This document shows, piece after piece, positions 13,660-54,216 of a stretch of 64,000 bases of DNA; positions within the stretch are counted from its first letter, which is position 1, and the number at the start of each line of letters is the position of its first letter. Position numbers and translations under genes: made by a program. Origin of the DNA: a bacterium (GTDB lineage Bacteria > UBA8248); NCBI GenBank assembly GCA_022828125.1, contig JAJEJD010000024.1, positions 62,001-126,000 on the forward strand, in the 5' to 3' direction. Under the pieces are notes generated by a model. It was not told where the DNA came from. It saw only the letters and a list, made by a program, of their open reading frames with translations, and did not search any database.

Positions 13660-13699
13660 AACCGCTTTCTGGTATTCTTGAAGACTTTCCGAACGGCCG

Positions 13700-14158
13700 C
13701 TATTCGGGCCGCTTCAGCGTCCAGTTGTCCGCAACGCGCGTCGCCGCGCTCATGAACAGATAGAGAATGCAGCCCGCGCGAAACTTCTCCTTCACCCGCT
13801 CCAGTTCCTCTTCCGAGCCCGCCGAGGTCACCTCTATCTCAAGCTCCACGCCGGTGACGCCCCCGTTCTCCGCGTGCGGGTCGCCGGGCGCGAAGCGCTC
13901 CATGATGAGTCTTCCCTCGATCGCGCAGTCATCGAGCGGCATGCCGACCTCTTTCGCGAACAACTCCACGTGCGCGGCGCCGCAGCCCGTCAGCGCGCCG
14001 AGCATGTACTCGGCGGGGGTGGGATGCTCGAACAGCCCGCCGCGCTCCACGGGCTCGTCACTCGAGAACTCCGGGCAATCGCGCGCCTGTATCCGCGCGC
14101 GCAAATCCCCCATCCACTGTGCGTTCGCCACCCGTGTGATGGTATTCCGTTCGTCCAT
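13700..14158 (-). CDS. OsmC/Ohr-family protein
   Basis: A 152-residue single-domain protein. The family's two conserved cysteines are in LTGCGAAHVELFAKE and KFRAGCILYLFMSA, at the expected spacing for peroxidatic and resolving thiols, and the PTPAEYMLGALTGCG run is characteristic. OsmC and Ohr proteins reduce organic hydroperoxides; this type (with an Asp/Glu-rich N-terminus) is the broader OsmC group rather than Ohr. It lies on the same strand as the EamA gene downstream (40-base gap), but a functional link is not evident. Confidence 0.88.
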   Translation of the reverse strand: MDERNTITRVANAQWMGDLRARIQARDCPEFSSDEPVERGGLFEHPTPAEYMLGALTGCGAAHVELFAKEVGMPLDDCAIEGRLIMERFAPGDPHAENGGVTGVELEIEVTSAGSEEELERVKEKFRAGCILYLFMSAATRVADNWTLKRPE

Positions 14159-14251
14159 GCCGCCGTCCTCTTCGGTTAAGGAGGAATCCGCGTGTAGCCT
14201 ACTACATCGCTCCCCCGCCGCGCCATGCGGACAGGGCGCGCGCGCAACCCC

Positions 14252-18953: not shown

Positions 18954-20987
18954 TCAGGCAGAATGCGTCGACTTGGGGCCCATCCCCTCGGTGATTTCAC
19001 GCACCCTGGCCTCGAGCCAGGATTCATCTATCGGCTCCGCTCCCGAGCGAGCCTCCTCGACAGCCCGCATCGCCTCGAAGCGCACATGCCGGCGAATGGC
19101 GGGGGGGATGCCCTCCGTGGCCCGGTTGACGGCCAACTGCAACTCATCCGGCCAGAACCGCTCGAACGCCTCCCGGGCGGCCCCGAACGAAAAGAGAGCC
19201 GCCTCGGAGCCGCCGCGTTCATCGGCAAGCAGCCGCCGTCGCTCGGCCGTTTCTTCTTCCAGGATTCGGCCAGCGCGGATGATCACGCCATAGACCTCCA
19301 CGGCGCTCTCTGAGGTAACCAGCCCGTCCTCGACGTCGCGCAGCACAAGCGCAGGGTCGCGCTCCCAAGGCGGGCCGAAGCCGCCGCCCCCGGCCGAGTG
19401 GACGTGGACGACGCCGCCGGCGGGAACATCGAGCACGTTTATCTTCTCAATCGGCTCGGGTTCCCCGCCGGGGGCTTGCAGGAACGCGCGTCCCGCCTCG
19501 CCCGGCCGGCCGTCTTCCCTGCCCCAGGGCTGAAAATGGAACCTCTCCAGCCCCCGGGCCGTCACCACCCCGCCGGGTACGAGAATCCGGAGGGAATAGT
19601 CCAGCCCGCACCCGCCGCGCAGCCGCCCCGCTCCCCCGGAATCGGGTTTCAGCCCGTAGCGCTCGACCAGGACGGGTATCTCAGTCTCCAAAACTTCTGT
19701 GGGGATGTTCCGGTAGAAGCCCGTGGTGAAATCGACTCCTTCGGTGCCGTCGTCGAAGGGCCGCGCCCCCGACCCGCCCACGAGAGGCTGGACGGTGCTC
19801 ACCAGGTTCGTCCCGGTGGTGAAATCAGGTGCGGACACCAGCATGATGGAACCCTGGCCGCAGCCCGCGGCCGGCATCCGCTCCCGCCAGGCGCGCGCCA
19901 GGGCGCCGAGAACGATATCGGCCACCTTGAAGAACGTGGCCTGTCTGGCGCCGCAGGGCGCGCCGGGCTCGGGGTTGAGGAGGGACCCACGCGGCGCGTT
20001 CACCTTGACGGGGCGGACAAGGCCCGAGTTGTACACCGTGTCCGGCTTGACGCTCCGCATGAAGTTGACCACGCCCATGACCAGGAGGTAGTGGCCGTCC
20101 ATGCTGTAGGAGGGGACGTTGAACGCCGCCGCCACCTGCGGGTCCGTGCCCTCGAAGTCGAGGAGCATCTCCTCGCCCCGAATCCTCAAGGTGAGGCGGA
20201 TGCGGACGTGGCGTCCCTCCGGCATCAGGTCCCCTTCCAGGTAGTCCCAGAACTCGTAGTCTCCATCGGGAACCTCCCGTATCAGCGAGCGGGCCTGGGC
20301 TTCCGCGTAATCCAGAACGTCGTCGAGCGCCGTCCGCAAGAGGTCCGCGCCGTACTTTTCGGCGAGGCCCGTGACGCGCAGTTCCGCGCGCTTGAGCGCC
20401 CCGAGCATCGCCAGCACGTCGCCCCGGTTCTTGTCCGGAATTCGGCAGTTCCGCAGGAATATCCGCAAGATGTCTTCCCGCATTTCGTCTTCGGCGACGA
20501 GCCGGGTCACCGGAATGACCACGCCTTCCTGATGCTGGTCGACGGCGGAAGGCGCGATGGATCCGGGCGCGAGCCCGCCCACGTCCGTGCAATGGATGAA
20601 GGCGACCGCGAAGCAGACGAGCTCGCCTTCGTGGTAGACGGGACGCCAGCAGAAGACGTCGAGCAGATGGGTGACCAGGCCCCTGCTCTGCTCCGGGTCG
20701 TTGGTGAACCAGACGTCGCCGGGCCGGTACGGCCCGCCGGCTTCGATCACGGCCCCGAACTTCTGGCCGACCCCTATCCAGAGCCCGATATCCACGGAGC
20801 AGGCCGCCACCTCTCCCTTGGGCGTCACCAGGGCGACGATGAAATCCTGGGTTTCCTTGACGAAGACGGTATGCCCGCAGCGGGTCAGCAGCTCGCCCAT
20901 CTCCTCCACGATCCCCTGGAACCGGCACCGGAGTATTTCCAGCAGGACGGGGTCGGAGTTCGTTCGGGGTGAAGAAGTTTCGCTCAT
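18954..20987 (-). CDS. hyuB: Hydantoinase B / oxoprolinase-type subunit
   Basis: A 677-residue protein of the HyuB/acetophenone-acetone carboxylase alpha family. Family features are DPVLLEILRCRFQGIVEEMG at the N-terminus, WFTNDPEQSRGLVTHLLDV, AFIHCTDVGGLAPGS, NVPSYSMDGHYLL and the Gly-rich PVLVERYGLKPDSGGAGRLR. With HyuA it forms an ATP-dependent amidohydrolase (hydantoin, 5-oxoproline) or a carboxylase; the substrate is unresolved. The stretch HSAGGGGFGPPWERD near the C-terminus is also conserved. Its ATG overlaps the hyuA stop (ATGA), indicating translational coupling and a heteromeric product. Confidence 0.9.
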   Translation of the reverse strand: MSETSSPRTNSDPVLLEILRCRFQGIVEEMGELLTRCGHTVFVKETQDFIVALVTPKGEVAACSVDIGLWIGVGQKFGAVIEAGGPYRPGDVWFTNDPEQSRGLVTHLLDVFCWRPVYHEGELVCFAVAFIHCTDVGGLAPGSIAPSAVDQHQEGVVIPVTRLVAEDEMREDILRIFLRNCRIPDKNRGDVLAMLGALKRAELRVTGLAEKYGADLLRTALDDVLDYAEAQARSLIREVPDGDYEFWDYLEGDLMPEGRHVRIRLTLRIRGEEMLLDFEGTDPQVAAAFNVPSYSMDGHYLLVMGVVNFMRSVKPDTVYNSGLVRPVKVNAPRGSLLNPEPGAPCGARQATFFKVADIVLGALARAWRERMPAAGCGQGSIMLVSAPDFTTGTNLVSTVQPLVGGSGARPFDDGTEGVDFTTGFYRNIPTEVLETEIPVLVERYGLKPDSGGAGRLRGGCGLDYSLRILVPGGVVTARGLERFHFQPWGREDGRPGEAGRAFLQAPGGEPEPIEKINVLDVPAGGVVHVHSAGGGGFGPPWERDPALVLRDVEDGLVTSESAVEVYGVIIRAGRILEEETAERRRLLADERGGSEAALFSFGAAREAFERFWPDELQLAVNRATEGIPPAIRRHVRFEAMRAVEEARSGAEPIDESWLEARVREITEGMGPKSTHSA

Positions 20988-23008
20988 CCGGCCGCCTCCG
21001 CGTGCAGGTTGCCCGACGGGTCGGCCCGGAAGTCGAACCCGGGCGTAACGAAAACGGTCGTGTCGTACTGAAGGAGTACGGCGGGGCCGGAGAGCCGGAG
21101 GCCGGCGGGAATTTGCGCTCTTTGGTAGACGGGAACCGAGAGCCGGCTCCCCTGATGCGTCACCTCGCGGGTCTCCACGGGCGCCGGTCGATCCGATTCG
21201 CTGAGCGAAGAGGAAGAAACGGCGGCGCCGACCACCGGGTTCGGCGCCCTGGCGAGCATTCGTATCTGCAGCACCTCGATCTCGCTCCCGGGGTCGCGGT
21301 AGCCGAAAGTCTCCTCATATCTCTGGTGGAAGGTTTCCTGATAATCCCCGTTCCCGGTCAATCCGACCATGATCTCGAACGATTGCCCCTTGTAGCGCAT
21401 ATCCGCGCTCCGCTCGAACGCCGCCGACCCGGTTTCCAAGCCCTGCTCGGTGAGCCACCTCCGGGCGGTCTCCTCCATCTCCGAGAACATCTCTTCCATC
21501 CCCTCCACATCCGAGGTGTCGGTGAGGACGCTGCGGACGAAATCCATCTGCACGTCCGCCACGGCCGCTCCCACCGCGCACATCGCGCCCGGCGCAGGGG
21601 GGATGACGAGCCTTCGGATGCCGGCTTCCGCCGCCAGCAGGAAGGCGTGGGTGGGCCCGGCGCCCCCGAAGGCCTGGAGGCTGAATTCGCGGTGGTCGAC
21701 GCCGTAGCGCGCGATCATCGGCAGGAACGAGGCGACCATGTTCGCCGTCGCGACCCGCAGGACGGCTTCGGCCGCCCGGGTCGTCTCCACGCCCAGGGCC
21801 TCGCCCAGTCCGCCTATGGCCTCTTCCGCCTGCGCCCGCGAAAGCTTCATCCGGCCGCCCAGCAGGTCGTTCTCGCCCAGTATGCCCGTTACGAGGTAGG
21901 CGTCCGTGACGGTCGGCTCCCGGCCTCCGCGTCCGTAGCACGCCGGTCCCGGATCGGCCCCCGCCGAGCGGGGGCCCACCTTCAGAACACCGTGCGGGTC
22001 GACCCACGCAATCGATCCACCACCCGCGCCGATGGTCTCGATGGCGACGGCCGGAACGAATAGCGGAAAATCCCCGATCGTGCTCTCCACGCTCACGCGG
22101 GGCCGGCCGTCGATGAGGGACATGTCAGCGCTGGTCCCTCCCATATCCAAAGTGAAGAGCTTCGCCTCGCCGGATTCCCGGACGGACTTGGCCGCCGCCA
22201 TCACACCCGAAGCGGGCCCCGAGAACATCGTGCGCACGGGAATCCGCGCCGCCTCGTCGATGGAGACCGTCCCGCCGTTGGACTGGGTGATCAGGATCGG
22301 GCAGCCGACGCCCATCGCCCGCAGGCCCTCCTCCAGCCGCCGGTAGTAGGAGCGCATGGTGGAGCCGACGTAGGCGTTCATCACGCAGACGAGCGTCCGC
22401 TCGTATTCGCGCTGCTGGGGCCACGTCTCCCACGACGCGCAGACGAAGAGCTCGGGCCAGCGTTCGGCGATGACCGCCCGGGCCGCTTGCTCATGGACCG
22501 GATTGACGCAGGAGTGCAGAAAGCTGACGGCCACCGCCGTGACGCCCGCACCCAGGAGTTCCCCGACCCCTCTCAACACAGAATCCGGCTCGAGCGGGCG
22601 CAGGACGCTCCCGTCCGCGCCGACGCGCTCCCTCACCTCCCGGACGTGGGCGCGGCGGACGAGCGGCACGGGTCTGGCCGCTTCAAAGCTGGGCGCATCG
22701 GGAAGCCGGGTCCGGCGGAGTTCCAGGACGTCGCGGAATCCTTGCGTCGTCAGAAGCCCGGTCGTCTCGCCCGTGCGCTGAATGATCGTGTTGACCGCAA
22801 GCGTAGAGCCCGCGCCGAAGTAGACGATGTCCTCGGGGTCGAGGCCTTCGCCACGGAGTCCCTCCCGCACGCCTTCCAGCACGCCGGAAACCGGCTCACC
22901 GACAGACGTGGGGACCTTGTAGACGCCCGTCCGGCCCGTGGATTCCTCCACCAGGGCCACGTCCGTAAAGGTGCCTCCGACGTCCACGCCGATCCGCCAG
23001 CCGCTCAA
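20984..23008 (-). CDS. hyuA: Hydantoinase A / oxoprolinase-type subunit
   Basis: A 674-residue ASKHA-fold protein. The N-terminus RIGVDVGGTFTDVALVEEST is the phosphate-1 motif of this ATPase family. FTLDMGGTSADMSLIDGRP is the second nucleotide motif, and FGGAGPTHAFLLAAEAGIRRLVIPP is also typical. It belongs with the hyuB gene downstream, whose start overlaps its stop by 4 bases. Together they probably cleave or carboxylate a small cyclic amide or ketone using ATP. No racemase, transporter or acetone-carboxylase gamma gene is adjacent, so no specific substrate is offered. Confidence 0.92.
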   Translation of the reverse strand: MSGWRIGVDVGGTFTDVALVEESTGRTGVYKVPTSVGEPVSGVLEGVREGLRGEGLDPEDIVYFGAGSTLAVNTIIQRTGETTGLLTTQGFRDVLELRRTRLPDAPSFEAARPVPLVRRAHVREVRERVGADGSVLRPLEPDSVLRGVGELLGAGVTAVAVSFLHSCVNPVHEQAARAVIAERWPELFVCASWETWPQQREYERTLVCVMNAYVGSTMRSYYRRLEEGLRAMGVGCPILITQSNGGTVSIDEAARIPVRTMFSGPASGVMAAAKSVRESGEAKLFTLDMGGTSADMSLIDGRPRVSVESTIGDFPLFVPAVAIETIGAGGGSIAWVDPHGVLKVGPRSAGADPGPACYGRGGREPTVTDAYLVTGILGENDLLGGRMKLSRAQAEEAIGGLGEALGVETTRAAEAVLRVATANMVASFLPMIARYGVDHREFSLQAFGGAGPTHAFLLAAEAGIRRLVIPPAPGAMCAVGAAVADVQMDFVRSVLTDTSDVEGMEEMFSEMEETARRWLTEQGLETGSAAFERSADMRYKGQSFEIMVGLTGNGDYQETFHQRYEETFGYRDPGSEIEVLQIRMLARAPNPVVGAAVSSSSLSESDRPAPVETREVTHQGSRLSVPVYQRAQIPAGLRLSGPAVLLQYDTTVFVTPGFDFRADPSGNLHAEAAG

Positions 23009-23286: not shown

Positions 23287-24141
23287 TCATCTCAAACCTA
23301 GTTCTTTGAGCCATGCGTCGACTTGTCCGAAAGCGTCCTGTTGCCATTGGTCCGCAGTGCGATCACCGAGCGCGTTGGAACCTTCCACGAATTGCCGCAC
23401 GCTGGTCGGACCGAAATCATTCATGTCGCGGAATTTTTCCGAGAGCAACCGATAGCCTTCTTGCGCCGAATCGACTTCAAGAAGCGGCTTCGTTGCTTCG
23501 ACGAGAGCGTCCAGCCCGCCTGAAAAGTTGCGGACGGAGAAATAGATGTCATAGGCGTCTTTTTGTTTCAAACGATTGGCGATGGCGTATCCTTTCATGG
23601 CCAACAGCGCCGGGGTCGACGCCACGGGAATATGCACGCGATTGCGCCCACCGCCGGGCATTTCACCCTCGATGAGGACCATCTCGTAGAATTTAAGCGC
23701 GAGATCGGCGCCGTCGGCGCGCTGAACGGCGAACTCCTCGACAAGCGGCGGGATGTTCTTCGCTATCTCGACTTCGCGCGGCATGAGAAAGTCCACATCG
23801 ACGGGAATGTCAGACCCACCGCGCGCAGGCACGGAGCGCACGAGCTGAAAGCGAGGTGAATTGTCCCGTTGATCATAACCTTGCGCTTGAAGGGACTCTA
23901 CGAGCCGGGCGTATTCCCCATCGCCCAGGGCCTCGGCGTCGAGACACAGATCTACGTCCAAGGTGCCGACATGGGACATTTCAGATTCGCTCGGCAACAG
24001 CCAGGGAACGACGCCCCCGATCACCACGAACTTGCCCTGGAAACTGCCCAGGATCTGTCCGATCTCGATCAATACGGATTTGACCGCCGCAGTGGAACGA
24101 AAATCATAGTCATGGGCAAACCGCTGTTCTATTCCAGCCAC
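23287..24141 (-). CDS. Nucleotidyltransferase-fold protein, toxin candidate of an AbiE-like pair
   Basis: A 284-residue protein with a polymerase-beta-type nucleotidyltransferase core. FVVIGGVVPWLL (residues 38-49) is the GG motif, HVGTLDVDLCLD carries the two metal-binding Asp (62 and 64), and PVDVDFL supplies a third acidic strand. The later STPALLAMKGYAIANRLKQKDAYD segment has the Lys and the KDxxD pattern of AbiEii/COG4849-type proteins. AbiEii-type toxins transfer nucleotides to tRNA or other targets. The start overlaps the end of the upstream regulator-like gene by 13 bases, so both are made together. Base composition is visibly lower in GC than the flanking hyu and SDR genes, which suggests transfer. 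Confidence 0.8.
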   Translation of the reverse strand: MAGIEQRFAHDYDFRSTAAVKSVLIEIGQILGSFQGKFVVIGGVVPWLLPSESEMSHVGTLDVDLCLDAEALGDGEYARLVESLQAQGYDQRDNSPRFQLVRSVPARGGSDIPVDVDFLMPREVEIAKNIPPLVEEFAVQRADGADLALKFYEMVLIEGEMPGGGRNRVHIPVASTPALLAMKGYAIANRLKQKDAYDIYFSVRNFSGGLDALVEATKPLLEVDSAQEGYRLLSEKFRDMNDFGPTSVRQFVEGSNALGDRTADQWQQDAFGQVDAWLKELGLR

Positions 24142-25217
24142 GGGAAGGACTCCCTTGCTATATACTCGGCAGCTTCACGGTCGCGGTCATTGCCGTTCCA
24201 CAGATCGAGATAAGTGACGAGCGGGCTGGTGCAGAAAACGCCCGGCGCAGGTTCGATGGCGTCGTCGAACAAACTCTCATCCCTGAGGACACGAATGACG
24301 ACGTTCGCTCCTTTTGCGACAGACGTTAGTCTGATTGTCTCTATCAAGGCTTGAACACCAAGCTCATCAGCATAGAAATTGTATGTCCCGTCCCGGCCAT
24401 AAGGCGCGAACCATTGGGCTGCGGAATGCAATGAATAGATCGCGCGCGGGCGCTGCTGATACGGATTGAGCGCTCCCGAGAGTCGCTTTTCGAGTTCCTC
24501 ACTATGAAGATGCGTGTATCCGGTGATGCGATGACCGGACGGACGGCGATAATTCTCTCGCCAAGTTTTCAGCAGCGCGTCCGGCCGGGTGAGGACTGCG
24601 CCGTCGTCCTGTTGTTCGATCCATTCCCGCTCGAATAAAGCTTTGCGAACATTGCTCACATGACCAAGGCTTGTATTGGCTTTTTCAGCGAGGTCGGCGA
24701 CACGCCATGCGCGGCTCGGATCACGCAGCATAACGCGCAGGACAGCACCCGCTTTGGGAGTGAAAATCGACCGTAGCGCACGGGTTTCGGACTTCGGCTT
24801 ACCTGCAACAGCCCGATCGATATAGACATTATCGAAAGCGAGATGCGCGTTCCCGAAAAGATCGAGATAAGCGACATTGTGAGCTTTGCAGATTGCGCGC
24901 GACTCCAGGGACAGGTAAGGGCTGACAATCATTGGAATCAGACGCCGGCCGATATCCACATGACCCGATTGAAGCAAATGCGCCACGAAGCTTTCGAGTT
25001 GGTAGACTCCCGCACGCACGAATCGCGGCGCCCCGTTTGCTTTCACTTCGATGATGAGCGCATAGTCGACGCCGTCACGGCTCAGGTCGATCCGTCCATC
25101 GATGCCGTACTCTCGTCCGACATTCTGCTGATAGACAATCGAGCCCACCTTCACATCCGGTACATGGCAGAGCAAGTCGCGAACCGCATCGCTGGTTATG
25201 ACATCTTGCTCTTTCAT
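24129..25217 (-). CDS. AbiEi-like regulator with PD-(D/E)XK-like N-terminus and winged helix
   Basis: A 362-residue protein (369 if the first ATG at 25238 is used). Near the N-terminus, GIDGRIDLSRD followed by YALIIEVKANG gives an Asp, then a spaced Glu-X-Lys, and a later Gln (GVYQLESF): the layout of the PD-(D/E)XK nuclease core. The segment LIPMIVSPYLSLESRAICK then AYLDLFGNAHLAF matches my recollection of the AbiEi_2/COG4861 family. A winged helix follows (AWRVADLAEKANTSLGHVSN). In type IV systems AbiEi represses its own promoter. I prefer the ATG at 25217 because an 18-bp operator-like repeat covers the ATGs at 25235 and 25238. No start has a clear ribosome site. Confidence 0.75.
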   Translation of the reverse strand: MKEQDVITSDAVRDLLCHVPDVKVGSIVYQQNVGREYGIDGRIDLSRDGVDYALIIEVKANGAPRFVRAGVYQLESFVAHLLQSGHVDIGRRLIPMIVSPYLSLESRAICKAHNVAYLDLFGNAHLAFDNVYIDRAVAGKPKSETRALRSIFTPKAGAVLRVMLRDPSRAWRVADLAEKANTSLGHVSNVRKALFEREWIEQQDDGAVLTRPDALLKTWRENYRRPSGHRITGYTHLHSEELEKRLSGALNPYQQRPRAIYSLHSAAQWFAPYGRDGTYNFYADELGVQALIETIRLTSVAKGANVVIRVLRDESLFDDAIEPAPGVFCTSPLVTYLDLWNGNDRDREAAEYIARESFPWLE

Positions 25218-25229
25218 TGTTTGAGTATA

Positions 25230-25247
25230 TTTCATCATTTGCTGAAA
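25230..25247. promoter_or_regulatory. Operator-like inverted repeat 1 of the AbiE-like pair
   Basis: TTTCA, eight bases (TCATTTGC), then TGAAA. The second copy at 25294-25311 has the same 5-8-5 layout and shares the spacer end TGC. A TATAAT -10-like hexamer reads on the minus strand at 25258-25253, so this site would lie just after the start of transcription. Confidence 0.6.
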
Positions 25248-34218: not shown

Positions 34219-35424
34219 TCAGTCCTCTTTTGGAAAATTCTCGCTTCCTGGTGGGTAGGTGAATAAATTGCTCCTATGCCCTTCCAACCCGGGCGTTTCC
34301 CAGGAAGGCGCTCCTCCCGATGCGGGCATTTCGCCTTGCGCCACGCCCTTTTGCAGCCTTCGCCACTCGTTTTGAAAATCCTCTGTATGCCCCCTGAAAT
34401 GCGGCATGACGTATCGTGCGAACAACTCGAGTGACGCCCTTATCTTCTGATCGGGCACCCATTCCTGCGTCGTAAGCATAAGTCCGCCGAATCCGCCTGA
34501 TTCCTCCTGTATTTTCTCTATGACCTCTATCGCGTCATCCGGGGTACCTACTATCCAGTATCTTTGCTCCGCGGCCACTTTCGGTGTGATTTCGGTGCGC
34601 GGCTGATCGGGATACGCCTCATACGCAGGTTTCAAGCCGATATCCATAAAATAATTCATGTCGCGGAGAGCATACTTTTCGATATCGGCCCACGCTTTTT
34701 CACGGCTTTCGGCAAGATGCACGTACGTGGTGATTCTCCAGTTCTCACGCGACACTTGCGTGCCGTATTTTCGCGCACATTCCTCCATATAGGGCCATTG
34801 CTCGGAGAGCGAGAGGTTATCCATGATTTTCTTGCCGCCGAAGGAGAGCAAAATCATCTCGTATCGAGCGGCCATATCGATTGCCCCACGGCTTCCCGCC
34901 GATGCGATGGCGAGCGGCATTCTGGGTTTCTGGTAGGAGCGCACCTGAAGACACACATTCCTCAACTTCCAGAATCGTCCCTCATAATCGAAAGGCTCGG
35001 ACGATTCCAGGAGTTTGACCATGATATCCACCGATTCGTTCAGCATCGGACGCAGATCGCCGGGTGGGATATCGAACAGCTTGATGTCACTTACCAGATT
35101 GCTTGGGCCCACGCCAAAAATGACGCGTCCCCTGGTGAGTTGGTCCAGAAACGCCATTCGCTCCGCCAAGTGAAACGGATGATGGAAAGGGACGCTGATC
35201 ACGGAAGTACCCAATCGAATTCGTTTCGCCTTGGCTGCTGCCATAGCGAGAGCCATCTCGGGCGCTGGAATCGTCTCCCAACCACCGGAATGGTGCTCAC
35301 CTATGTAGAATTCATCAAAGTCGAGTTCATCGGCATATTCGATGAGTGAAATATCGCGCTGATAGGCAAGCGACGGATTTTCAGAAGGGTGGTGAATTGG
35401 CATCATGAAAAAAGAAAATTTCAA
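34219..35424 (-). CDS. LLM-class flavin-dependent oxidoreductase (limonene-monooxygenase-like)
   Basis: A 401-residue luciferase-like TIM-barrel protein. MKFSFFMMPIHHPSENPSLA, DFDEFYIGEHHSGGWETIPAPE and RIRLGTSVISVPFHHPFHLAER are typical of the bacterial luciferase/LimB group, as is RVIFGVGPSNLVSDIKLFDI. Members use reduced FMN or F420 and oxygen on hydrocarbons or sulfonates. The substrate is unknown. The C-terminal 60 residues (LQKGVAQGEMPASGGAPSWE onward) look like an extended tail. The gene is divergent from typA and lies upstream of the PAC2 gene on the same strand. Confidence 0.88.
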   Translation of the reverse strand: MKFSFFMMPIHHPSENPSLAYQRDISLIEYADELDFDEFYIGEHHSGGWETIPAPEMALAMAAAKAKRIRLGTSVISVPFHHPFHLAERMAFLDQLTRGRVIFGVGPSNLVSDIKLFDIPPGDLRPMLNESVDIMVKLLESSEPFDYEGRFWKLRNVCLQVRSYQKPRMPLAIASAGSRGAIDMAARYEMILLSFGGKKIMDNLSLSEQWPYMEECARKYGTQVSRENWRITTYVHLAESREKAWADIEKYALRDMNYFMDIGLKPAYEAYPDQPRTEITPKVAAEQRYWIVGTPDDAIEVIEKIQEESGGFGGLMLTTQEWVPDQKIRASLELFARYVMPHFRGHTEDFQNEWRRLQKGVAQGEMPASGGAPSWETPGLEGHRSNLFTYPPGSENFPKED

Positions 35425-38043: not shown

Positions 38044-39057
38044 TTACGGATTTCCTTTCAGCTCAAAAACCTCCGCCAAAAGTTCATAGGATTTCACTCT
38101 GGCCTCGAAGCTGTACATCACATTAACGACGACGAGTTCCTCGACCTTGTGCTCAAAAGCCAGGGCCTCGAGTCTTTTCTTGACCTGCTCAGGATCCCCG
38201 GCGATGGTTCTGCTGTCGATATCCTCAGCAAAGGCGCGCTCCATGTTCGTCCACGGATAGGCGAGCGCCTCCTCGGGCGTGGGTACGCCTCCTCCCTCGC
38301 CACGGCGGCTTCTGAGCATGACCAGAGGTCTGCTGGCCGCATGGTAGAGCGCTTCTTCTTCGCTCGACGCACAAATCACAAAAACCGCCAGACTTCCCGC
38401 GGGCTCTTTACACTTGGCTGATGGACGAAAATCCCTGCGGTACATATCCATGACCTGAACGCTGCCATAGGTGTTGATGAAATGTGCGAATGAAAAGGCA
38501 CAACCAAAATGGGCAGCGAGAATCGCGCTTTGATCCGAAGTTCCCAAGAGCCACATTTCGGGTGCTGTCTCTCCGGTGGGCATGGCGCGTATCCGGGCGA
38601 AGGGGTGATCTTCGGGCAACGACCCATCAATCCAGCCTCTAAGGTCAGAAACTTTTTGCGGGAAATCATCGTAGCGAAAACCACTCTGCTCAGGCGCCAG
38701 AGCCGCAGACGTGAGCCTGTCGGCTCCGGGGGCGCGGCCCAAACCCAAATCGATGCGGCCCGGATAGAGCGTCTCCAACACCCGGAACGATTCGGCCACC
38801 TTGAGCGCGCTGTAGTGACTGAGCATGACCCCGCCCGATCCGACGCGAATCGTCTCAGTCGTCGCGGCGATTTTGCCGATCAAAATTTCCGGCGACGTGC
38901 CCGCGAACGCCCCATGGCTGTGATGTTCCGCCAGCCAGTAGCGGTAATAGCCCAGGCGTTCGGCAACTTGCGCCAACTCGACGGTCTCGCCGATGGCGTC
39001 CGCCGCCGTTCCTCCCGATCGGACCGGAGATTGATCCAAAACGCTTAAACGAATCAT
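38044..39057 (-). CDS. LLM-class flavin-dependent oxidoreductase, MsnO8-like
   Basis: A 337-residue luciferase-fold protein. RLSVLDQSPVRSGGTAADAI, YYRYWLAEHHSHGAFAGTSP, IRVGSGGVMLSHYSALKVAE and GRIDLGLGRAPGADRLTSAA are the MsnO8/YhbW-type motifs. It probably uses FMN and oxygen; no substrate can be assigned. Length fits the family (about 330-340). It differs clearly from the longer LLM protein at 34219. It is transcribed alone, between the cyclophilin and the BON lipoprotein gene. Confidence 0.88.
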   Translation of the reverse strand: MIRLSVLDQSPVRSGGTAADAIGETVELAQVAERLGYYRYWLAEHHSHGAFAGTSPEILIGKIAATTETIRVGSGGVMLSHYSALKVAESFRVLETLYPGRIDLGLGRAPGADRLTSAALAPEQSGFRYDDFPQKVSDLRGWIDGSLPEDHPFARIRAMPTGETAPEMWLLGTSDQSAILAAHFGCAFSFAHFINTYGSVQVMDMYRRDFRPSAKCKEPAGSLAVFVICASSEEEALYHAASRPLVMLRSRRGEGGGVPTPEEALAYPWTNMERAFAEDIDSRTIAGDPEQVKKRLEALAFEHKVEELVVVNVMYSFEARVKSYELLAEVFELKGNP

Positions 39058-43602: not shown

Positions 43603-43929
43603 TCATCCCCCCATGTATTGTCCCATCAAGAGGACGAGGTCGCCTTCTTTCATCTCGGAATCGAGCGTGTGATGAATGCCCAAGAGCGCATCGTTTACGG
43701 CAATTTCGAGGTGTTCGGCCAGTTGGCCGGTGCCGTTGTGCCATAGCGCTTCATCCAGGGACCTGTAGCGTCGGCTCATCTTTTTGAGAACGTCGCGAAG
43801 CGTGGCGCCTTCAGGAACCTCCTCATCGAAAACCTTGCGCTCGTTCCCGTCACCGCCCACGAAAGTCGACGCCCAGGAGATGAACTCCAGCCGGACACGA
43901 ATTCCTTTGACGCTTTTCGTCTCGTTCAT
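43603..43929 (-). CDS. MoaD/ThiS-family sulfur-carrier-like protein
   Basis: A 108-residue beta-grasp protein. The start at 43929 follows AGGGG; the frame to 43950 would need a TTG. EEVPEGATLRDVLKKMSRR and LEIAVNDALLGIHHTLDSEM fit MoaD, and the protein ends in GQYMGG, with the C-terminal Gly-Gly needed for thiocarboxylation. It is the last gene of the AOR operon, 27 bases after the oxidoreductase. MoaD-like AorD proteins accompany tungsten AORs, probably for cofactor delivery or assembly. Confidence 0.85.
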   Translation of the reverse strand: MNETKSVKGIRVRLEFISWASTFVGGDGNERKVFDEEVPEGATLRDVLKKMSRRYRSLDEALWHNGTGQLAEHLEIAVNDALLGIHHTLDSEMKEGDLVLLMGQYMGG

Positions 43930-43956
43930 CGCGTCATCCCCTGACTTCAAGGTGAG

Positions 43957-45849
43957 CTATACGTTCGCACCCCATAGCGCCTCGGCGACATCTTCCAGAT
44001 CGAGCTCGCGCAAAAGTTCGGGTTTGGGGCGGCCCGTCTCCCTGTCGTAGCCGGCCGTCTCGTACCAGATATCGAGCATTTTATCCCATTGATCCATGAT
44101 CGAAACGCCCGCGATCGGTCCATCCACCGGCGTGGAACCATACCGCTTGGATGGCTTTTCGACTTCAGGCCCAATGCCGCAGCGCAAGTTGAACGCGCGC
44201 ATCAAGGCGTTGATGCGCCGGCCGGTCTGCATCGCTTCATCCTTGTCCACGTCCCAACCGGTAGCCGCCTGAATCGATCGACATAAAACGTCCATCGGCG
44301 CGCGCGTAGTGAACACGCACGCCCCTAGGGAATCCTCATACGCGCGTCGGCCCCTGAGACCGCCCACATGCTTGGGCACCGCCTCTGCGTCCTGTGGGTG
44401 CACACGCGCGGGCAGGTCGTAATCCGTCGGGAAAACCGGGGGAGCCGTATCCATCGTTCCGCCCGAACCCGTGCAGGTATCGATCATTTCCTCCCAGCGG
44501 GAGCGGTGGTCGTGCCCCCTCGGAGAATTTCCGACTTCCGTGTAAATAGCGCAATCCTGCGCCTCGCCGCCGAGTTTCTCCGCCGCGAGTTTCGTTCCCT
44601 CGGCCAGGAGGTCGCCCATGCCTTCGCGCTTGCAGATCATCTCGAGCAATCTGTTGGCCCCGTCGATATCGCCCCACTCCAGGCGGAAGCCCAGATCCTG
44701 ATCCGTGATGTAGCCCTTTTGCTGACACTCCATCACCCAGCCGCACAGCCAGCCGAACTCGTTCACGTCCACACATGCGCGATCGAGCTGGGTGTTCATC
44801 CAGGTGACCTGCTGCGGGTCCGTGGCGCCAATCGTCCAGCCCGCGCCCGACCATCCCTCGTACTCGGGCTCGTCAACCACCTGCCCCTTATAAGGACCCG
44901 AGGAGATGACCTGCATGTGGCAATGGTGCATGCCGCACGCGCTGCACTGATGGCCCCGGTGGTCGAAACCCTCGCGCAGGCCGTTGGCCTCCCATTGCTT
45001 CGTTTCGACTTCCTCGGGCCATACGTTCGTCGTGTAGTTTCGAATCGGGAGCGCCCCCATGCCTTGCAAGTTCCGGACGCCGCCGAGGGTACCGTACAGG
45101 TACAACCCCTTGGTGGAGGGATCGGTCTGGAGGCTGTGGGCGATATCGTCCGCCGCGGCAAAGAGCGCTTTGGGATGGGCTGCGGCGACTCCCTTCGTTC
45201 CGCGCTCGATAGCCACCGCCTTCACCTTTTTCTTGCCCATTACGGCCCCGCAACCGTTCTTGCTCGCCACGTGGCCGTAATCCCCCTGTATAGCGGAGAA
45301 GCGCACGAGGTTCTCGCCCGCGGGCCCGATGCTGTAGACGCTCAAATTATGGCCGCTCAAATTCAGCGTCTTCTCGAGCGATTGCTGTGTCTCCCAGGTG
45401 TCCTGGCCCAGCAACCCGGAGGCGTCGCGAAGCTCCACCCCGTCATCGCGAATGTGGAGATAAACCCAATCGGGCGATTCTCCCTGAAAGACGATAGCGT
45501 CATAGCCGCAATACTTGATGTTCGCGCCGAAAAATCCGTTTGCCTGGGTGTTGGTCGCGCCGTTGGTCATCGCGCCCCGCGTCACCACGGTGAGCCCGCC
45601 CGTTCCCCAGACCGGCAGACCCGCCAGAGGGCCCGTAGCCAGAACGAGGCGGTTTTCGGGATGATCCCAACCAACCTCGGGCGGCACTTCTTCCCACAAA
45701 ATCTTGGCGCCCAGGCCTGCGCCGCCCACCCATTTTCTGCGGTCTGCGACATCGAATTTCTCTCCCCAGGTCTTCCCGCTCGAGAGATCGACCCTGAGGA
45801 TTTCTCCTGCATATGCGTAATCAGTCAAGACATCGACCTCCTTGTTCAT
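43957..45849 (-). CDS. Tungsten-type aldehyde:ferredoxin oxidoreductase family catalytic subunit
   Basis: A 630-residue AOR. The N-terminal domain has AGEILRVDLSSGKTWGEKFD and WVGGAGLGAKILWEEVPP. TRGAMTNGATNTQANGFFGA and FSAIQGDYGHVASKNGCGAV are family motifs. Fe-S ligands would be Cys302, Cys305, Cys310 (QCSACGMHHC) and Cys511 (EDSLGACVF). The first three are spaced CX2CX4C, not the CX2CX3C of Pyrococcus AOR. It oxidises aldehydes to acids, or reduces acids, with a W-bispterin cofactor. Its ATG overlaps the stop of the FAD subunit gene, indicating a coupled complex. Aromatoleum aorABCDE has the same parts in different order. Confidence 0.9.
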   Translation of the reverse strand: MNKEVDVLTDYAYAGEILRVDLSSGKTWGEKFDVADRRKWVGGAGLGAKILWEEVPPEVGWDHPENRLVLATGPLAGLPVWGTGGLTVVTRGAMTNGATNTQANGFFGANIKYCGYDAIVFQGESPDWVYLHIRDDGVELRDASGLLGQDTWETQQSLEKTLNLSGHNLSVYSIGPAGENLVRFSAIQGDYGHVASKNGCGAVMGKKKVKAVAIERGTKGVAAAHPKALFAAADDIAHSLQTDPSTKGLYLYGTLGGVRNLQGMGALPIRNYTTNVWPEEVETKQWEANGLREGFDHRGHQCSACGMHHCHMQVISSGPYKGQVVDEPEYEGWSGAGWTIGATDPQQVTWMNTQLDRACVDVNEFGWLCGWVMECQQKGYITDQDLGFRLEWGDIDGANRLLEMICKREGMGDLLAEGTKLAAEKLGGEAQDCAIYTEVGNSPRGHDHRSRWEEMIDTCTGSGGTMDTAPPVFPTDYDLPARVHPQDAEAVPKHVGGLRGRRAYEDSLGACVFTTRAPMDVLCRSIQAATGWDVDKDEAMQTGRRINALMRAFNLRCGIGPEVEKPSKRYGSTPVDGPIAGVSIMDQWDKMLDIWYETAGYDRETGRPKPELLRELDLEDVAEALWGANV

Positions 45850-47168
45850 GAAGAAATGGCTATTTCATGCGCAGATATCGACGGACGCCCCAAAACGGTT
45901 TCCGGCAGCAAGCCGCCCGCGGCGCCCGAGGCCAGGAATGCACGCTTCACGTCGAATGGATTCTCGCGTAAATGCTCCTTCCACTCCAAGATATCCACCC
46001 CCGTATACACGAGACCCTTCAGCATCCCCACGTCGTTCGTCGTCCAGATTTCCCGGGTCTTCCCCAGGATGATCGCGCCGGTCAGCCTCCCACCGTGGAA
46101 CAGGAGCTTTCTGTAGGCGGGCCGCTCTGGCCGCACAGCCTCGAAGACTTCGGCATCCGCATCATCCCAGGCGCCGAAGCTCGCGATCTCCATATCGAGC
46201 ACGTCCACGATGTTCATGAGCAGACTGCCCTTATACGCCACTTCCTGGCCGGCCATGTTGGCCGCCGCCACGCGGCCATGCTGCATGGCGGTGGGTTCGA
46301 TGGCGTGTACGACCTTCTCGCCGGTGACCGCGTCGGGGCCTTCCGCGATATCTCCCGCCGCGTAAATGTTCTCCACGTTCGTGCGACAATGCTCGTCCAC
46401 CAGAATGCCCTGGTTGGTCTCGAGGCCGCTGCCCGCCACCCAATCGATGTTGGGCTTGATGCCCGTGGCCATGATGACCAGGTCGACCTCCAAATCGGGA
46501 CCTTCCTTGAATTTGAGGAGTTTCGCATCCCCTTTGTCCTCGATGGAGGTCACTTGCGTCGAGGTTCTCACTTCCACGCCTCGCTCGTTCAGCCAATCTT
46601 GAACGATTCCGGCGCCCGTATCGTCTATCATGCGCGGCAGAATGCGGGATTCGAGCTCCACGACGGTGAGCTTCACGCCCTGATTCACCAGGGCGTTCAG
46701 AATCGTAAAGGCGATGAATCCCGCGCCGATCATCGCCACGCGGGCGCCTTCGCCTACGCCGGACGCCACGGCGCGCGCCTGGGGAAACGTCCAGAAGCTG
46801 TGCACGTTCTTCCCGTCCGCACCGGGTACCGGGGCCTTCACAGCAGAGGAACCCGTGGCGATTAGAAGGTTGTCGTATTCAATCTCATCGCCCCCCTCGA
46901 GGATGAGCTTGCCCGCGGATGCGTCGATTCTCTCGGCGCGCGCGCCGAGCCTCGCATCCACGTTCAGAGCAGCGAGCTTGGGAGGAGAGGCGATATAGAC
47001 GTGTGATTCCGCAATGTCCCGCGCCAGGTAATAGGGCAATACCATCCGAGAATACGGCGTCTCGTCCGCGACGAGGACGATCTCGGAATCTCCTTGATCC
47101 AGTTCCCTGAGGGTGGTGATGGCATTCCAGCCGGCGGTTCCGCCGCCCACGATGACGTGTCTGGCCAT
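45846..47168 (-). CDS. FAD-dependent NAD(P)H oxidoreductase subunit of the AOR complex
   Basis: A 440-residue pyridine-nucleotide-disulfide-type flavoprotein. The FAD motif is HVIVGGGTAGWNAITTLREL, the NAD motif is VAMIGAGFIAFTILNALVNQ and the second FAD contact is NIYAAGDIAEGPDAV. No redox-active CxxC pair is present, as in rubredoxin/ferredoxin reductases and AorC. It would pass electrons between ferredoxin and NAD. It starts 2 bases after the ferredoxin gene and overlaps the AOR start by 4 bases. The C-terminal extension (from about 330) is similar to NirB/rubredoxin-reductase tails. Confidence 0.9.
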   Translation of the reverse strand: MARHVIVGGGTAGWNAITTLRELDQGDSEIVLVADETPYSRMVLPYYLARDIAESHVYIASPPKLAALNVDARLGARAERIDASAGKLILEGGDEIEYDNLLIATGSSAVKAPVPGADGKNVHSFWTFPQARAVASGVGEGARVAMIGAGFIAFTILNALVNQGVKLTVVELESRILPRMIDDTGAGIVQDWLNERGVEVRTSTQVTSIEDKGDAKLLKFKEGPDLEVDLVIMATGIKPNIDWVAGSGLETNQGILVDEHCRTNVENIYAAGDIAEGPDAVTGEKVVHAIEPTAMQHGRVAAANMAGQEVAYKGSLLMNIVDVLDMEIASFGAWDDADAEVFEAVRPERPAYRKLLFHGGRLTGAIILGKTREIWTTNDVGMLKGLVYTGVDILEWKEHLRENPFDVKRAFLASGAAGGLLPETVLGRPSISAHEIAISS

Positions 47169-47170
47169 GA

Positions 47171-47650
47171 TCAGAGCACCCCCGCAAGCGGTCCGGCAGG
47201 CGATTTCGCCCGCTCCGCGGCAAAGGGCCCGACCCAGTCGGTCTTATCGGCCTCCTCAAAAACGATGGCGTCTGTGGGACACACGGACGCGCACGCGGGG
47301 TTACCACCGCACAAGTCGCACTTGAACGCCTTGTGGGTGTCGATGTCATAGAACATCGTTCCATAGGGACAGGCGATGGTGCAGAGCTTACAGCCCACGC
47401 AAATGTCATCCGCCACGTCCTTCGCCCCGGCCGGCGAGATGCCGATCGCCTCGACCGGACACGCCGTCAGGCACCATGCCTCGTCACACTGAGGACAGGT
47501 ATAAGGCGCATAGCTCGTATGACCTTCGAAAGCAGAAACCCGGATGACAGCCTTCGAGGGCTGAAACGTCCCCGTCTGCTCGTATGAGCACGCGAGTTCG
47601 CATCGCATGCAACCCGTACATTTTTCGGGAATGATCTTGAGTATTTTCAT
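47171..47650 (-). CDS. Four-cluster ferredoxin subunit of the AOR complex
   Basis: A 159-residue iron-sulfur protein. The start at 47650 gives MKILKIIPEKCTGCMRCELA; GGGGGTGCG lies just upstream, and the longer frame to 47758 has a non-conserved leader. Sixteen cysteines fall in four groups: CTGCMRCELAC, CPQCDEAWCLTACP, CVGCKLCTIACP and CDLCGGNPACASVCP, a DmsB/HycB-like layout for four [4Fe-4S] clusters. It is the first gene of the AOR operon and probably wires the tungsten subunit to the flavoprotein. Confidence 0.93.
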   Translation of the reverse strand: MKILKIIPEKCTGCMRCELACSYEQTGTFQPSKAVIRVSAFEGHTSYAPYTCPQCDEAWCLTACPVEAIGISPAGAKDVADDICVGCKLCTIACPYGTMFYDIDTHKAFKCDLCGGNPACASVCPTDAIVFEEADKTDWVGPFAAERAKSPAGPLAGVL

Positions 47651-47804: not shown

Positions 47805-48686
47805 TCAACCGCCCGACGTCACCAGAACAGCTCCCGCCACGACGATGAGCGTTCCCACCACCAGACGCTTCGTGATGACTTCCAGGTCGCGCAGCAGCAT
47901 CACCGACAGCAAAAGAACGAAAATCGGGGTCATGCGAACGAGCGGGGAAATCACCGCGAGTTGCCCGTCGCGCAGTGAGGTCCAGAACAGCACGGCGGAG
48001 AATAACCCAAACACGCCCGCCGGAATGCAAGCAACGGCGAGCTGCAAATTCCATTGAAATTTCTGGGCTTGGGAGGCGAAGCGCGAAGAAGCCAACAAAC
48101 CCACGTTGGCTATCAGTGTGGCCACCAGAATTCCCAGCCAGGGCGCATTCATGGCGGCCAGTCCGGCTTTTCGGAGATAGGGCGTGACGCTGAACGCCGC
48201 CATCGCGATGAAAGCGAAGGTGTAACGCTTCAGCGAATACTCTCCCGTTATCCGCTCGCCGGTGAGCCAGATCATCCCGATGACGATGAGCAAGATTCCC
48301 AGCCAGACGCCGGAGTCGGGGCGCTCGCCCAGAATCAGCACGCCCATCAGCGCCGAACCGATGGGAGTCGCCGCCACAAGCGCATTCGTTCTGCTCACCC
48401 CGACGTACTCACTCGAGCGAAGAGCGCTGTAGCGCGCTATGAGATTCCCCACCAAACCCGTGAAGAGAAATAAGATGAGAGCCGCCACCCAATCGCCTTC
48501 ATAGATATCGAACGATGGCGAGAAAAAGACGGCGAGGACCGCCATCCACCCATTCACCCAAAAAATAATGGTGATCGCCGAGGCGCGTTCGAGCAGTCTG
48601 CGAACGAGTATTTGATTGCATGCGAACAAAAAGGCACCCAGCAAAGCACGAAACTCAGGCGGCGCCTCCACAATCAAATTTCCCAT
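47805..48686 (-). CDS. EamA-family (DMT) transporter
   Basis: A 293-residue inner-membrane carrier with ten hydrophobic segments in two EamA repeats. GVSRTNALVAATPIGSALMG then VLILGERP closes the first half, and AVISPLVRMTPIFVLLLSVM then LRDLEVITKRLV the second. The ATG at 48686 follows GAGGTG and gives MGNLIVEAPPEFRALLGAFL; the longer frame to 48710 is less natural. Substrate unknown. It lies downstream of another EamA gene on the same strand, perhaps as a pair of related carriers. Confidence 0.85.
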   Translation of the reverse strand: MGNLIVEAPPEFRALLGAFLFACNQILVRRLLERASAITIIFWVNGWMAVLAVFFSPSFDIYEGDWVAALILFLFTGLVGNLIARYSALRSSEYVGVSRTNALVAATPIGSALMGVLILGERPDSGVWLGILLIVIGMIWLTGERITGEYSLKRYTFAFIAMAAFSVTPYLRKAGLAAMNAPWLGILVATLIANVGLLASSRFASQAQKFQWNLQLAVACIPAGVFGLFSAVLFWTSLRDGQLAVISPLVRMTPIFVLLLSVMLLRDLEVITKRLVVGTLIVVAGAVLVTSGG

Positions 48687-48740
48687 TTCACACCTCACGA
48701 ACCACCACAAAAGCGCGGCCTACTCAAAATGAATGAGCAC

Positions 48741-49625
48741 CTATCTGCCCAATACGATCAGAACGGCGCCCTCCACGGCAAGTAGCCCCCCGGCGATCAC
48801 CCGCAAATTGATGCGCTCGAGCCTTTGATAAAAGACCCAGGAAAACAAGATCAGGAATAAAATGGAGAGCCGGTTTATCGGGATCACCTCTATGAGCTTT
48901 CCGTTTTTGATGGCGAGCCAAAAGCAGTACGCCGAAATAACGTTGAAAAATCCTCCGATGAGAACCAAGCACAAGCTCTTTTGATTCCAGGTCCTGGGGT
49001 TGAGTTCATGATTTTCGACGAACGGTATGGAGCCGAGTTGGAGAAGCGCGCCCGCGAGCGCCGTGGTGGCGATACCGAAAGCGGGCGAGGGAATCGTCTG
49101 AAAAGCGAGCTTGCGCAAGGGCGGGGCGAAGGAGAAGAAAAAAGCGCCCAGGAGCGGCAGAAGATAGTACCAGAGCGGAGCGCGCCTTCCCTTCTCGCCT
49201 CTCTCCTGCACCAGTAGTATCGCGCCCAACACGATGGCGAAAGTGCCCAGGGCGATCGGGAAGGTCATCGTCTCGCCGAAAAGGAGCATCGCCAGAAGGG
49301 CACCCCATATGGGGTAGAATTGCGCAAGAATCTGAGAACGCGCCATACCGATGAGCGTGGCCGAGATGAAGTTGATGTTTCTCGACAGGAAATGAGAGCA
49401 AAGCCCCGCCAGCACGAACCAGAATATCCCCACCAGGGGCCATTTTTCGAGACCCGCACCCAGTATGTATATGGTCGAGGCGTAGGTCACCAGCGTCAAA
49501 TTGGTCACAAAGGTGATAGCCTTCGGCCCTATCCACTGCAGGGCGCCTCGATAGATGGTTTGCGTGACTGCCAAAAAGACAGCGGACAAAAAAGACAGAA
49601 AAACCGGAGGGAGTGACTCGATCAA
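48741..49625 (-). CDS. EamA-family (DMT) transporter
   Basis: A 294-residue inner-membrane carrier with about ten helices. LAVTQTIYRGALQWIGPKAI is the first segment. RSQILAQFYPIWGALLAMLL then FGETMTF, and LIEVIPINRLSILFLILFSW, end the two repeats. It is 54 bases upstream of a second EamA gene on the same strand. The halves are related but not identical, and the proteins differ clearly, so this is not a recent duplication. It diverges from the DinB-fold gene. Confidence 0.83.
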   Translation of the reverse strand: MIESLPPVFLSFLSAVFLAVTQTIYRGALQWIGPKAITFVTNLTLVTYASTIYILGAGLEKWPLVGIFWFVLAGLCSHFLSRNINFISATLIGMARSQILAQFYPIWGALLAMLLFGETMTFPIALGTFAIVLGAILLVQERGEKGRRAPLWYYLLPLLGAFFFSFAPPLRKLAFQTIPSPAFGIATTALAGALLQLGSIPFVENHELNPRTWNQKSLCLVLIGGFFNVISAYCFWLAIKNGKLIEVIPINRLSILFLILFSWVFYQRLERINLRVIAGGLLAVEGAVLIVLGR

Positions 49626-53062: not shown

Positions 53063-53905
53063 TCAGCCTCTGGAAAACAGAATCACGGACGCCGCGGCGA
53101 ATGCGACTCCCACCCCTTTTCTGAGCGTCAATTTCTCCTTCAAGAAGATGATGGCGAGCACCCCGGTCAACACGAAGCTCAACTGGGCGATGGGCGCCAC
53201 GACGACCGCCTCGCCGTAGGTGAACCCCACGGCGATGGCCACATAACTCGAAGAGGTGAGCACGCCGCAAACGAATGGGACCCATAGCGGCACGCCGCCC
53301 CTGGGCAACGGGTCTTTTTGAATGAGCACGTAAGGCACGGCCATGCAGAAGACCCCCACGCTTTGCATGGCCGTCATCATGGCGGGTTTGGCCCCCATCC
53401 CGAGTCCCAGTTTGTAGAAAAGCCCGATGACGCCGAACATGCACATGGCGCCGACCGCCAGGCCGACGGAGCGCTTATCCCCGACGGACGCCGCCACCCC
53501 GCTGCCGCCCGCCGTCACGGCGAAAGCCGCCAGAACCAGAGCGAGACCCTTGATGAGATTGACGCTCTCGCCGAGAAAGAAAATCGTGAGGGCGGCCGTT
53601 ACCGCGAAGTTCAGGCGGACGATCGGAACGAGCGCCACCGCCTCGCCCCTTCTTAAGGCGAGCAAAACGAACAGGAACGCGGTGAACGCCAGAATTCCGT
53701 TGATGAATCCAAAGGCGAGGCCCGGATTCCAGAGCAACTCCTCTCGATACCAAGCCAGGCCGAACGCGTTGGGCAGGTACGCCATGTTTTGCAGGAACAT
53801 GAAGGGCCCGCTGCGCATATCCCACTGCTGGCCCCACTTGTAGAGAAAGTCATTGACGCCGAGAAAACACAACGACATGAGCGCGAAGACGACTTCGGGC
53901 GGCAT
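53063..53905 (-). CDS. EamA-family (DMT) transporter
   Basis: A 280-residue carrier with ten hydrophobic segments. The ATG at 53905 follows GGGGAG and gives MPPEVVFALMSLCFLGVNDF; the frame to 53941 is a poor fit. VALVPIVRLNFAVTAALTIF then FLGESVNL ends the first EamA repeat, and VVVAPIAQLSFVLTGVLAII then FLKEKLTL the second. Substrate unknown. Being tail to tail with the CoA-transferase does not indicate co-regulation. Confidence 0.85.
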   Translation of the reverse strand: MPPEVVFALMSLCFLGVNDFLYKWGQQWDMRSGPFMFLQNMAYLPNAFGLAWYREELLWNPGLAFGFINGILAFTAFLFVLLALRRGEAVALVPIVRLNFAVTAALTIFFLGESVNLIKGLALVLAAFAVTAGGSGVAASVGDKRSVGLAVGAMCMFGVIGLFYKLGLGMGAKPAMMTAMQSVGVFCMAVPYVLIQKDPLPRGGVPLWVPFVCGVLTSSSYVAIAVGFTYGEAVVVAPIAQLSFVLTGVLAIIFLKEKLTLRKGVGVAFAAASVILFSRG

Positions 53906-54216
53906 ACGCGACTCCCCGGCGCGGACGTCCCTGCTCGCCACGCATACCTCTTGGCTGATGGGGGGATGAAAGCGCCCTCGATTCAGGGATGCTCCAAAGG
54001 GCAGGCTTCAAAAACCGAAAAAATGATACGGCCCCCACTCCGGCGTGTCAACGGAATGAATGAAGACGAATACCCCCATCTTCAGTAATCCGAGCGACTC
54101 GCCATAACCCCCGGGACGTAAAACATGCTATCTTGGAGTCGATAAGCCAGATAAAACCGTTACAATCCAAAAAACTGTGTGTTTTTCTTTTATCTTTCAA
54201 GTTAGGAGCCGAGAGA
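53906..54216. other. 311-bp gene-free region
   Basis: This divergent spacer separates the EamA gene from the NUDIX gene. The half near the NUDIX gene turns AT-rich, with a TACAAT (-10-like) at 54161-54166; no matching -35 at 16-18 bases was found. Nothing else is recognisable. Confidence 0.45.

Follow-up and report, generated by a model that had tools for sequence, protein, structure and literature searches.

The window described here is a 64,000-nucleotide stretch (C31:62001-126000) of a 3.9 Mb bacterial genome that is assembled in 32 contigs and is about 97% complete. It contains an operon of four minus-strand genes (43603-47650) encoding, in the order of their direction, a ferredoxin, an FAD/NAD reductase, a subunit of the aldehyde oxidoreductase (AOR) family and a MoaD-like protein. 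The ferredoxin and reductase genes are separated by a gap of 2 nt, the reductase and AOR genes overlap by 4 nt, and the MoaD-like gene follows after a gap of 27 nt; the open reading frame coordinates and the Pfam matches of the products bear out the tight linkage of four genes reported in the first-pass annotation of this DNA.

The ferredoxin gene (47171-47650) encodes a WorS- or AorA-type polyferredoxin of 159 aa that matches several 4Fe-4S Pfam models above cut-off. Of 46 aligned rows, at least 45 retain each of its 16 cysteines, and the exceptions are gaps; this number of cysteines is enough for four clusters. The C-terminal tail is conserved and carries an invariant DW; the predicted structure of the protein is of low confidence (predicted local distance difference test, pLDDT, 38.9), and we note that in the AORAa filament the C-terminal helix of AorA is described as joining the protomers. 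The reductase (45846-47168; 440 aa) is a WorN- or AorC-type FAD-dependent NAD reductase with Pyr_redox_2 and Rubredoxin_C matches above the Pfam cut-offs. The catalytic subunit, WorL (43957-45849; 630 aa), matches AFOR_N with 210.2 bits (cut-off 29.8) and AFOR_C with 263.7 bits (cut-off 27), and its putative functional residues include Cys302, Cys305, Cys310, Cys511, Thr254, Glu331, His193, His446 and Asp467. The last gene (43603-43929) encodes a MoaD/ThiS-like protein (WorX) of 108 aa that terminates in Gly-Gly; its family matches are under cut-off, the ThiS match (21.4 bits) falling just below the Pfam threshold of 22.5.

Class III tungsten oxidoreductases (WORs) are defined by the combination of WorL, WorS and WorN, with WorX denoting a ThiS-like gene (PMC13328260). 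The window cluster holds a WorL, a four-cluster WorS and a WorN with an FAD domain, and is by gene content a predicted Class III WOR. In the same account the sole characterised Class III enzyme is the AOR of Aromatoleum aromaticum (AorABC, 8c0z; clade 87), and only five of the 92 WOR clades include a member with a defined role (PMC13328260). As had been proposed from the window alone, the parts match those of the NAD-coupled Aromatoleum system in a different order: both have the same three subunits, shown also by the Pfam matches, and the Aromatoleum operon likewise includes MoaD-like genes, but is arranged as aorABCDE (PMC6365974) rather than as ferredoxin, reductase, AOR and MoaD. In a search of the structure database both electron-carrying subunits match the Aromatoleum enzyme first (ferredoxin, 8c0z_C, 2.8e-50; reductase, 8c0z_E, 3.8e-79), and pairwise identities are 56% between the ferredoxin and AorA and 39% between the reductase and AorC, whereas the catalytic head is only 31.5% identical to AorB. 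A reverse pattern is seen between the Aromatoleum enzyme and the electron-bifurcating AOR 9mqx, in which the heads are 54% identical and the ferredoxins 43%. An Aromatoleum-type electron module thus appears to serve a far more distant catalytic head, which may reflect either a swap of the head or its fast evolution, and the identities fit both. A ferredoxin tree places the window ferredoxins and AorA apart from 9mqx, with support (67/99) too weak to build on.

The arrangement is widely shared. Our synteny sample contains 54 loci (53 named loci and the window), and among the 47 with at least 2 kb ahead of the AOR match the order ferredoxin, reductase, AOR is found in 44, from several phyla, so that it does not arise by chance. 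Of the seven loci with shorter flanks, L038, L069, L070 and L074 have the reductase, L076 has none within its 1.7 kb, and L044 and L084 are too short to tell. Sequence of 400 nt or more follows the AOR in 51 loci, and 23 of these have a MoaD gene within 1 kb downstream. Where genes were called from GC content, some may be shadow frames. Open frames of about 1170 aa in L011 and L013 were considered as reductase-AOR fusions and rejected, as the two matches lie in different frames.

The catalytic subunit and its clade

Among solved structures the AOR subunit matches that of Pyrococcus AOR (1aor) first (4.6e-82), and 8c0z is third (3.8e-68). An AlphaFold2 model of the head, built from a 38-row alignment, has a mean pLDDT of 89.2, and fold comparison gives Z scores of 38.6-47.1 to seven solved AOR-family entries, the next row being at 3.7 (VIA). 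The closest folds (Z 45.6-47.1) include 9mqx, 1aor and 9g7j, to which the head is 28-32% identical and with which it shares the Thr243 and Glu313 positions and the cluster cysteines; it differs in its second shell, described below, and the window operon lacks genes for bifurcating subunits. In a tree of 40 rows the window clade (19 rows) is supported at 100/100; its stem measures 1.43 changes per column, and 1aor, 8c0z, 9mqx and 9g7j fall in a separate group (8 rows, 97/99) that does not include it. An approximately unbiased (AU) test rejects the grouping of the head with AorB of 8c0z and 9mqx (p-AU 0.0128) and is compatible with the window clade as sister to the whole AOR group (p-AU 0.279), the constrained groups having been named after inspection of the tree. 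YdhV, L003 and others form long branches whose placement is unsure. The catalytic head thus belongs to a separate, long-stemmed clade outside both AOR sensu stricto and the bacterial AORAa subfamily, which may be sister to the AOR group as a whole. The phylogenetic placement that had been recommended as a check therefore departs from the Aromatoleum type, although it does not point to a place beside the molybdenum-type YdhV, whose Cys336 has no counterpart in the clade.

The clade may already figure among the 92 published WOR clades. A literature search judged by titles and abstract openings found no paper recognised as treating it and no characterised member, and the words 'aldehyde' and 'tungst' have no occurrences in PMC10839748, PMC10203281 and PMC10227082. 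A full-length or nearly full-length AOR scoring above 1100 bits is present in 17 of 18 genomes of the family and phylum of the window, its own included; the eighteenth, which is 79% complete, contains only a C-terminal match of 37 aa. No match exceeds 292 bits in 80 other genomes searched with the AOR. The closest named relatives (97-99% identity) are from uncultured genomes, including some labelled Nitrospinae or Nitrospinota, and the isolate UBA8248 is at 76%. In addition to the phylum of the window, the clade is seen at loci labelled Tectomicrobia, Rokubacteria, Methylomirabilota, SAR324, Deltaproteobacteria and Chloroflexi. Because it is full-length in 17 of the 18 phylum genomes and present in other uncultured lineages, the AOR is probably part of core metabolism in the phylum. 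The genome of the window also encodes a haem-copper oxidase, from which an aerobic-capable host is predicted as likely.

Residues of the second shell were compared between 70 clade rows (the window, L005-L020 and L034-L086; L002 and L004 are the window's own copies and were left out) and 61 others, of which 21 are from an earlier alignment and 40 are genes picked by hand from part of the homolog list. The published second-shell residues are Thr243, Glu313, Tyr427 and His448 (PMC13328260, PMC12096430), the latter three corresponding to Glu331, Tyr443 and His464 of the Aromatoleum enzyme (PMC10413684). Thr243 is maintained in 69 of the 70 clade rows (one is a gap; the comparators have 47 Thr and 6 Ser) and Glu313 in all 70 (49 of 61 comparators). 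Position Tyr427 is His throughout the clade, compared with 23 His and 23 Tyr among the others, and Arg182 is likewise replaced by His in 70 of 70 rows (36 Arg and 6 His in comparators). At the position of Pyrococcus His448 the clade has Glu (42 rows) or Asp (28 rows), whereas 60 of the 61 comparators have His; relative to the Aromatoleum enzyme, His464 aligns with Asp467 of the window and Tyr443 with His446. These rows are not independent, as near-identical pairs occur in both sets and some clade rows are probably one genome represented twice. Moreover, the clade loci beyond L005-L020 were retrieved through six short sequence patterns, and because two of these (CGMHHCHM and WEEMIDTC) fall on or close to scored sites, the conservation seen there is partly selected; L005-L020, which come from a whole-protein search, agree with the same pattern. 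The alignments indicate that the second shell of the clade has been rebuilt by the changes Tyr427 to His, Arg182 to His and His448 to Glu or Asp, with the Thr and Glu retained.

The four cluster cysteines of the head (Cys302, Cys305, Cys310 and Cys511) are kept in all 70 clade rows, and in each the third is one residue later than usual, with four residues between it and the second. All 61 comparators have Cys in the Cys295 column, and 54 have the motif CxxC-3-C, the other seven differing at the first Cys or carrying a double Cys. The column of the extra metal ligand of YdhV, Cys336, is a gap in all 70 clade rows; BamB, a benzoyl-CoA reductase (BCR), lies outside that alignment. Two loci labelled Chloroflexi and Dehalococcoidia (L077 and L078) carry Ser where Tyr312 is otherwise conserved.

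Two other AOR-family loci of the same genome were considered as an explanation of the operon and set aside. The paralog at C15:54150 (L001) has His in the His448 column and no ferredoxin or reductase match in its 3.6 kb locus, and that at C15:354627 (L003) is very diverged. The gene of the latter, the third of the AOR family in this genome, spans 9595-11463 of L091, and a gene resembling ferredoxin reductase stands a few kb upstream. Its alignment is unsure: the His448 column reads Ser in one version, and in another the protein falls among the His rows.

Tungsten and pterin supply

The first-pass annotation noted the absence of tungstate uptake genes from the window, and none was seen among the window genes scanned, which were not all of them; the genome search that it advised finds a TupABC-like set elsewhere. 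PF12849 matches two proteins of the genome: PstS, which exceeds its NCBIfam cut-off, and one resembling TupA (2e-72; 243.7 bits against a cut-off of 400). The latter is followed by a TupB-like permease (187.7 against 320), which also matches NF038017 above its cut-off, and the adjacent ATPase matches TupC with 109.7 against 400, TupC not being its best match. A TupA match is present in all 18 phylum genomes, in none above cut-off, and in 2 of 14 controls. ModA has no match in the genome, compared with matches in 11 of 14 controls, other molybdenum importers being outside the search. Genes for MoaA (above cut-off) and two MoeA-type proteins (one above cut-off) stand together, and MoaE adjoins a MoaD; the absence of bispterin-cofactor genes, which had been named as grounds for abandoning the assignment, is thus not what the genome presents. 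At L073 (labelled Dehalococcoidia; 13572-17848) a TupABC-like set lies after the clade AOR and MoaD and before a second AOR, a gene order that links tungstate uptake with these enzymes. Tungsten is a plausible metal, given the TupABC-like transporter, the MoaA, MoaE, MoaD and MoeA-type genes, and the lack of a ModA match. That the native metal is instead molybdenum, whatever the reaction, seems improbable: the MoaA, MoeA-type and MoaE genes also serve molybdenum enzymes, and YdhV, another member of the family, seems to favour molybdenum (PMC12096430), but the lack of a ModA match and the TupA-like matches in 18 of 18 genomes argue otherwise.

Proposed reaction and its alternatives

We lean towards reading the operon as encoding a three-subunit, NAD-wired tungsten oxidoreductase with a head of a separate clade, probably converting a carbonyl substrate to an acid. 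The catalytic subunit would carry tungsten-bis-pterin and one [4Fe-4S] cluster, and the four ferredoxin clusters would relay electrons from the head to FAD, which would pass them on to NAD+, or the flow would run the other way. A role in supplying pterin sulfur is proposed for the MoaD-like protein. In a two-electron oxidation of the carbonyl substrate, Glu331 could act as base and His446 could hold the substrate, while Glu or Asp467 would replace the lost His, perhaps aided by the clade-invariant His448 or His193 (window numbering). We regard the oxidation of aldehydes as likely, though not as secure. A precedent is ASOR (WOR5 of Pyrococcus, 6x1o; fold Z 44.7), which shares the His at Tyr427 and still oxidises aldehyde in its second step (PMC12096430). 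ASOR also replaces an otherwise conserved Arg, with Tyr, presumably in the Arg182 column; it differs in keeping a second His (His469) and lacking the Thr, and no NAD subunit is described for it in that source (PMC12096430).

Several observations weigh against this interpretation. With His present in 60 of 61 comparators, the loss of His448 from every clade row may point to a reaction of another kind, and BCR and WOR4 (in which the Tyr is Trp) have altered second shells and do not oxidise aldehydes (PMC12096430). The site itself aligns differently by method, to Met466 with single-sequence phmmer and to Asp/Glu467 with a clade profile and MAFFT; under neither is there a conserved His, a single row (L078) having His466. 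The head model is weak where it matters, with pLDDT below 50 at 297-304, the start of the cluster motif, and a mean of 61 at 461-470, which holds Asp467. The TupA, TupB, TupC and MoaD matches are under their equivalog or family cut-offs, and at three of the 47 loci (L049, L077 and L078) the AOR is not preceded by a ferredoxin or reductase of this kind.

An ordinary broad-range NAD-coupled aldehyde oxidoreductase with an Aromatoleum-like mechanism, its active-site substitutions being harmless, would account for the same three subunits, the retained Thr243 and Glu313 positions and a His at Tyr427 that is common elsewhere, and is compatible with the sister relation to the AOR group in the AU test. 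We consider it unlikely in light of the replaced His448 and shifted third cluster Cys in every clade row, the contrast between head and ferredoxin identities, and the rejected grouping with AorB and 9mqx. Of the NAD-coupled AOR originally proposed, the parts and the electron chain are indeed of Aromatoleum type; it is the head, in a separate clade with Glu or Asp for His448, that does not conform. About as doubtful, perhaps slightly more so, is that the head performs another reaction, such as BCR-like reductive chemistry or attack on a hydroxy acid or sulfonate, with NADH feeding or NAD+ receiving electrons over the same wire. The second-shell changes are fixed across several phyla, and a lack of aldehyde activity is described not only for BCR and WOR4 (PMC12096430) but also for one characterised Class V WOR (PMC13328260). 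Set against these are the retained Glu313 and Thr243 and the absence of anything matching YdhV's extra Cys ligand. BamB (Z 38.6) and YdhV share the fold and an altered second shell (PMC12096430), and the window clade differs from them in the absence of that ligand (70 of 70 rows) and in keeping Glu313.

The neighbours in Rokubacteria also come from families acting on semialdehydes, a further point against another reaction. There are 33 such loci, and in 29 of the 32 with at least 1 kb downstream a homolog of tartronate-semialdehyde reductase (TSR) lies downstream on the same strand, at 91 to 3650 nt (exceptions are L048, L052 and L085). In 21 loci a homolog of 3-hydroxyisobutyrate dehydrogenase (HIBADH) lies upstream of the AOR, at distances of 2.1 to 6.8 kb, and at L059 both are above the NCBIfam cut-offs; an aldo/keto reductase and a methylmalonyl-CoA epimerase-like protein are found farther downstream in many. 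This suggests semialdehyde metabolism for that lineage only, and because TSR and HIBADH homologs lie near the AOR there, we would guess that the substrate of the proposed tungsten oxidoreductase is a small aldehyde already bearing a carboxylate. The linkage is seen in Rokubacteria and not in the window, which counts against extending it. More tentatively, the clade could represent a catalytically distinct tungsten oxidoreductase class, with an Aromatoleum-type wire and a carboxylate in place of the His, which would act on small carboxylated substrates as part of central metabolism in hosts that have a haem-copper oxidase as well. For the mechanism proposed for aldehyde oxidation the clade is a natural test case, since the His of the Glu-His relay is an acid throughout it.

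Neighbouring genes in the window

Upstream of the operon and on the same strand is a pair of EamA genes (47805-49625) absent from the first-pass account. EamA2 (47805-48710), an EamA-type transporter gene given as its longest frame with an uncertain start, ends 154 nt ahead of the ferredoxin gene and has weak transporter matches, its L039 ortholog matching PF00892; EamA1 (48741-49625; PF00892, 1e-19) encodes an EamA-family transporter and sits 30 nt upstream of EamA2. In the near group (L034-L037, L039-L043, L081, L082 and the window) EamA matches are found upstream in 11 of 12 loci, L081 having none; of the 11 loci besides the window whose flank is long enough, 10 have an EamA2 homolog upstream. 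Scans of the locus gave two promoter-like sites, compared with 2.8 by chance, and seven terminator-like sites, compared with 5.9.

Among the various other genes in the window, we note two further EamA genes (12748-13659 and 53066-53941, both minus strand), a hydantoinase B and A / oxoprolinase pair (18957-23008), and a pair at 23290-25238 with weak matches, barely above the Pfam cut-offs, to AbiEii and AbiEi_2 (type IV toxin-antitoxin). Two luciferase-like monooxygenases (PF00296) lie close together at 34222-35424 and 38047-39057.

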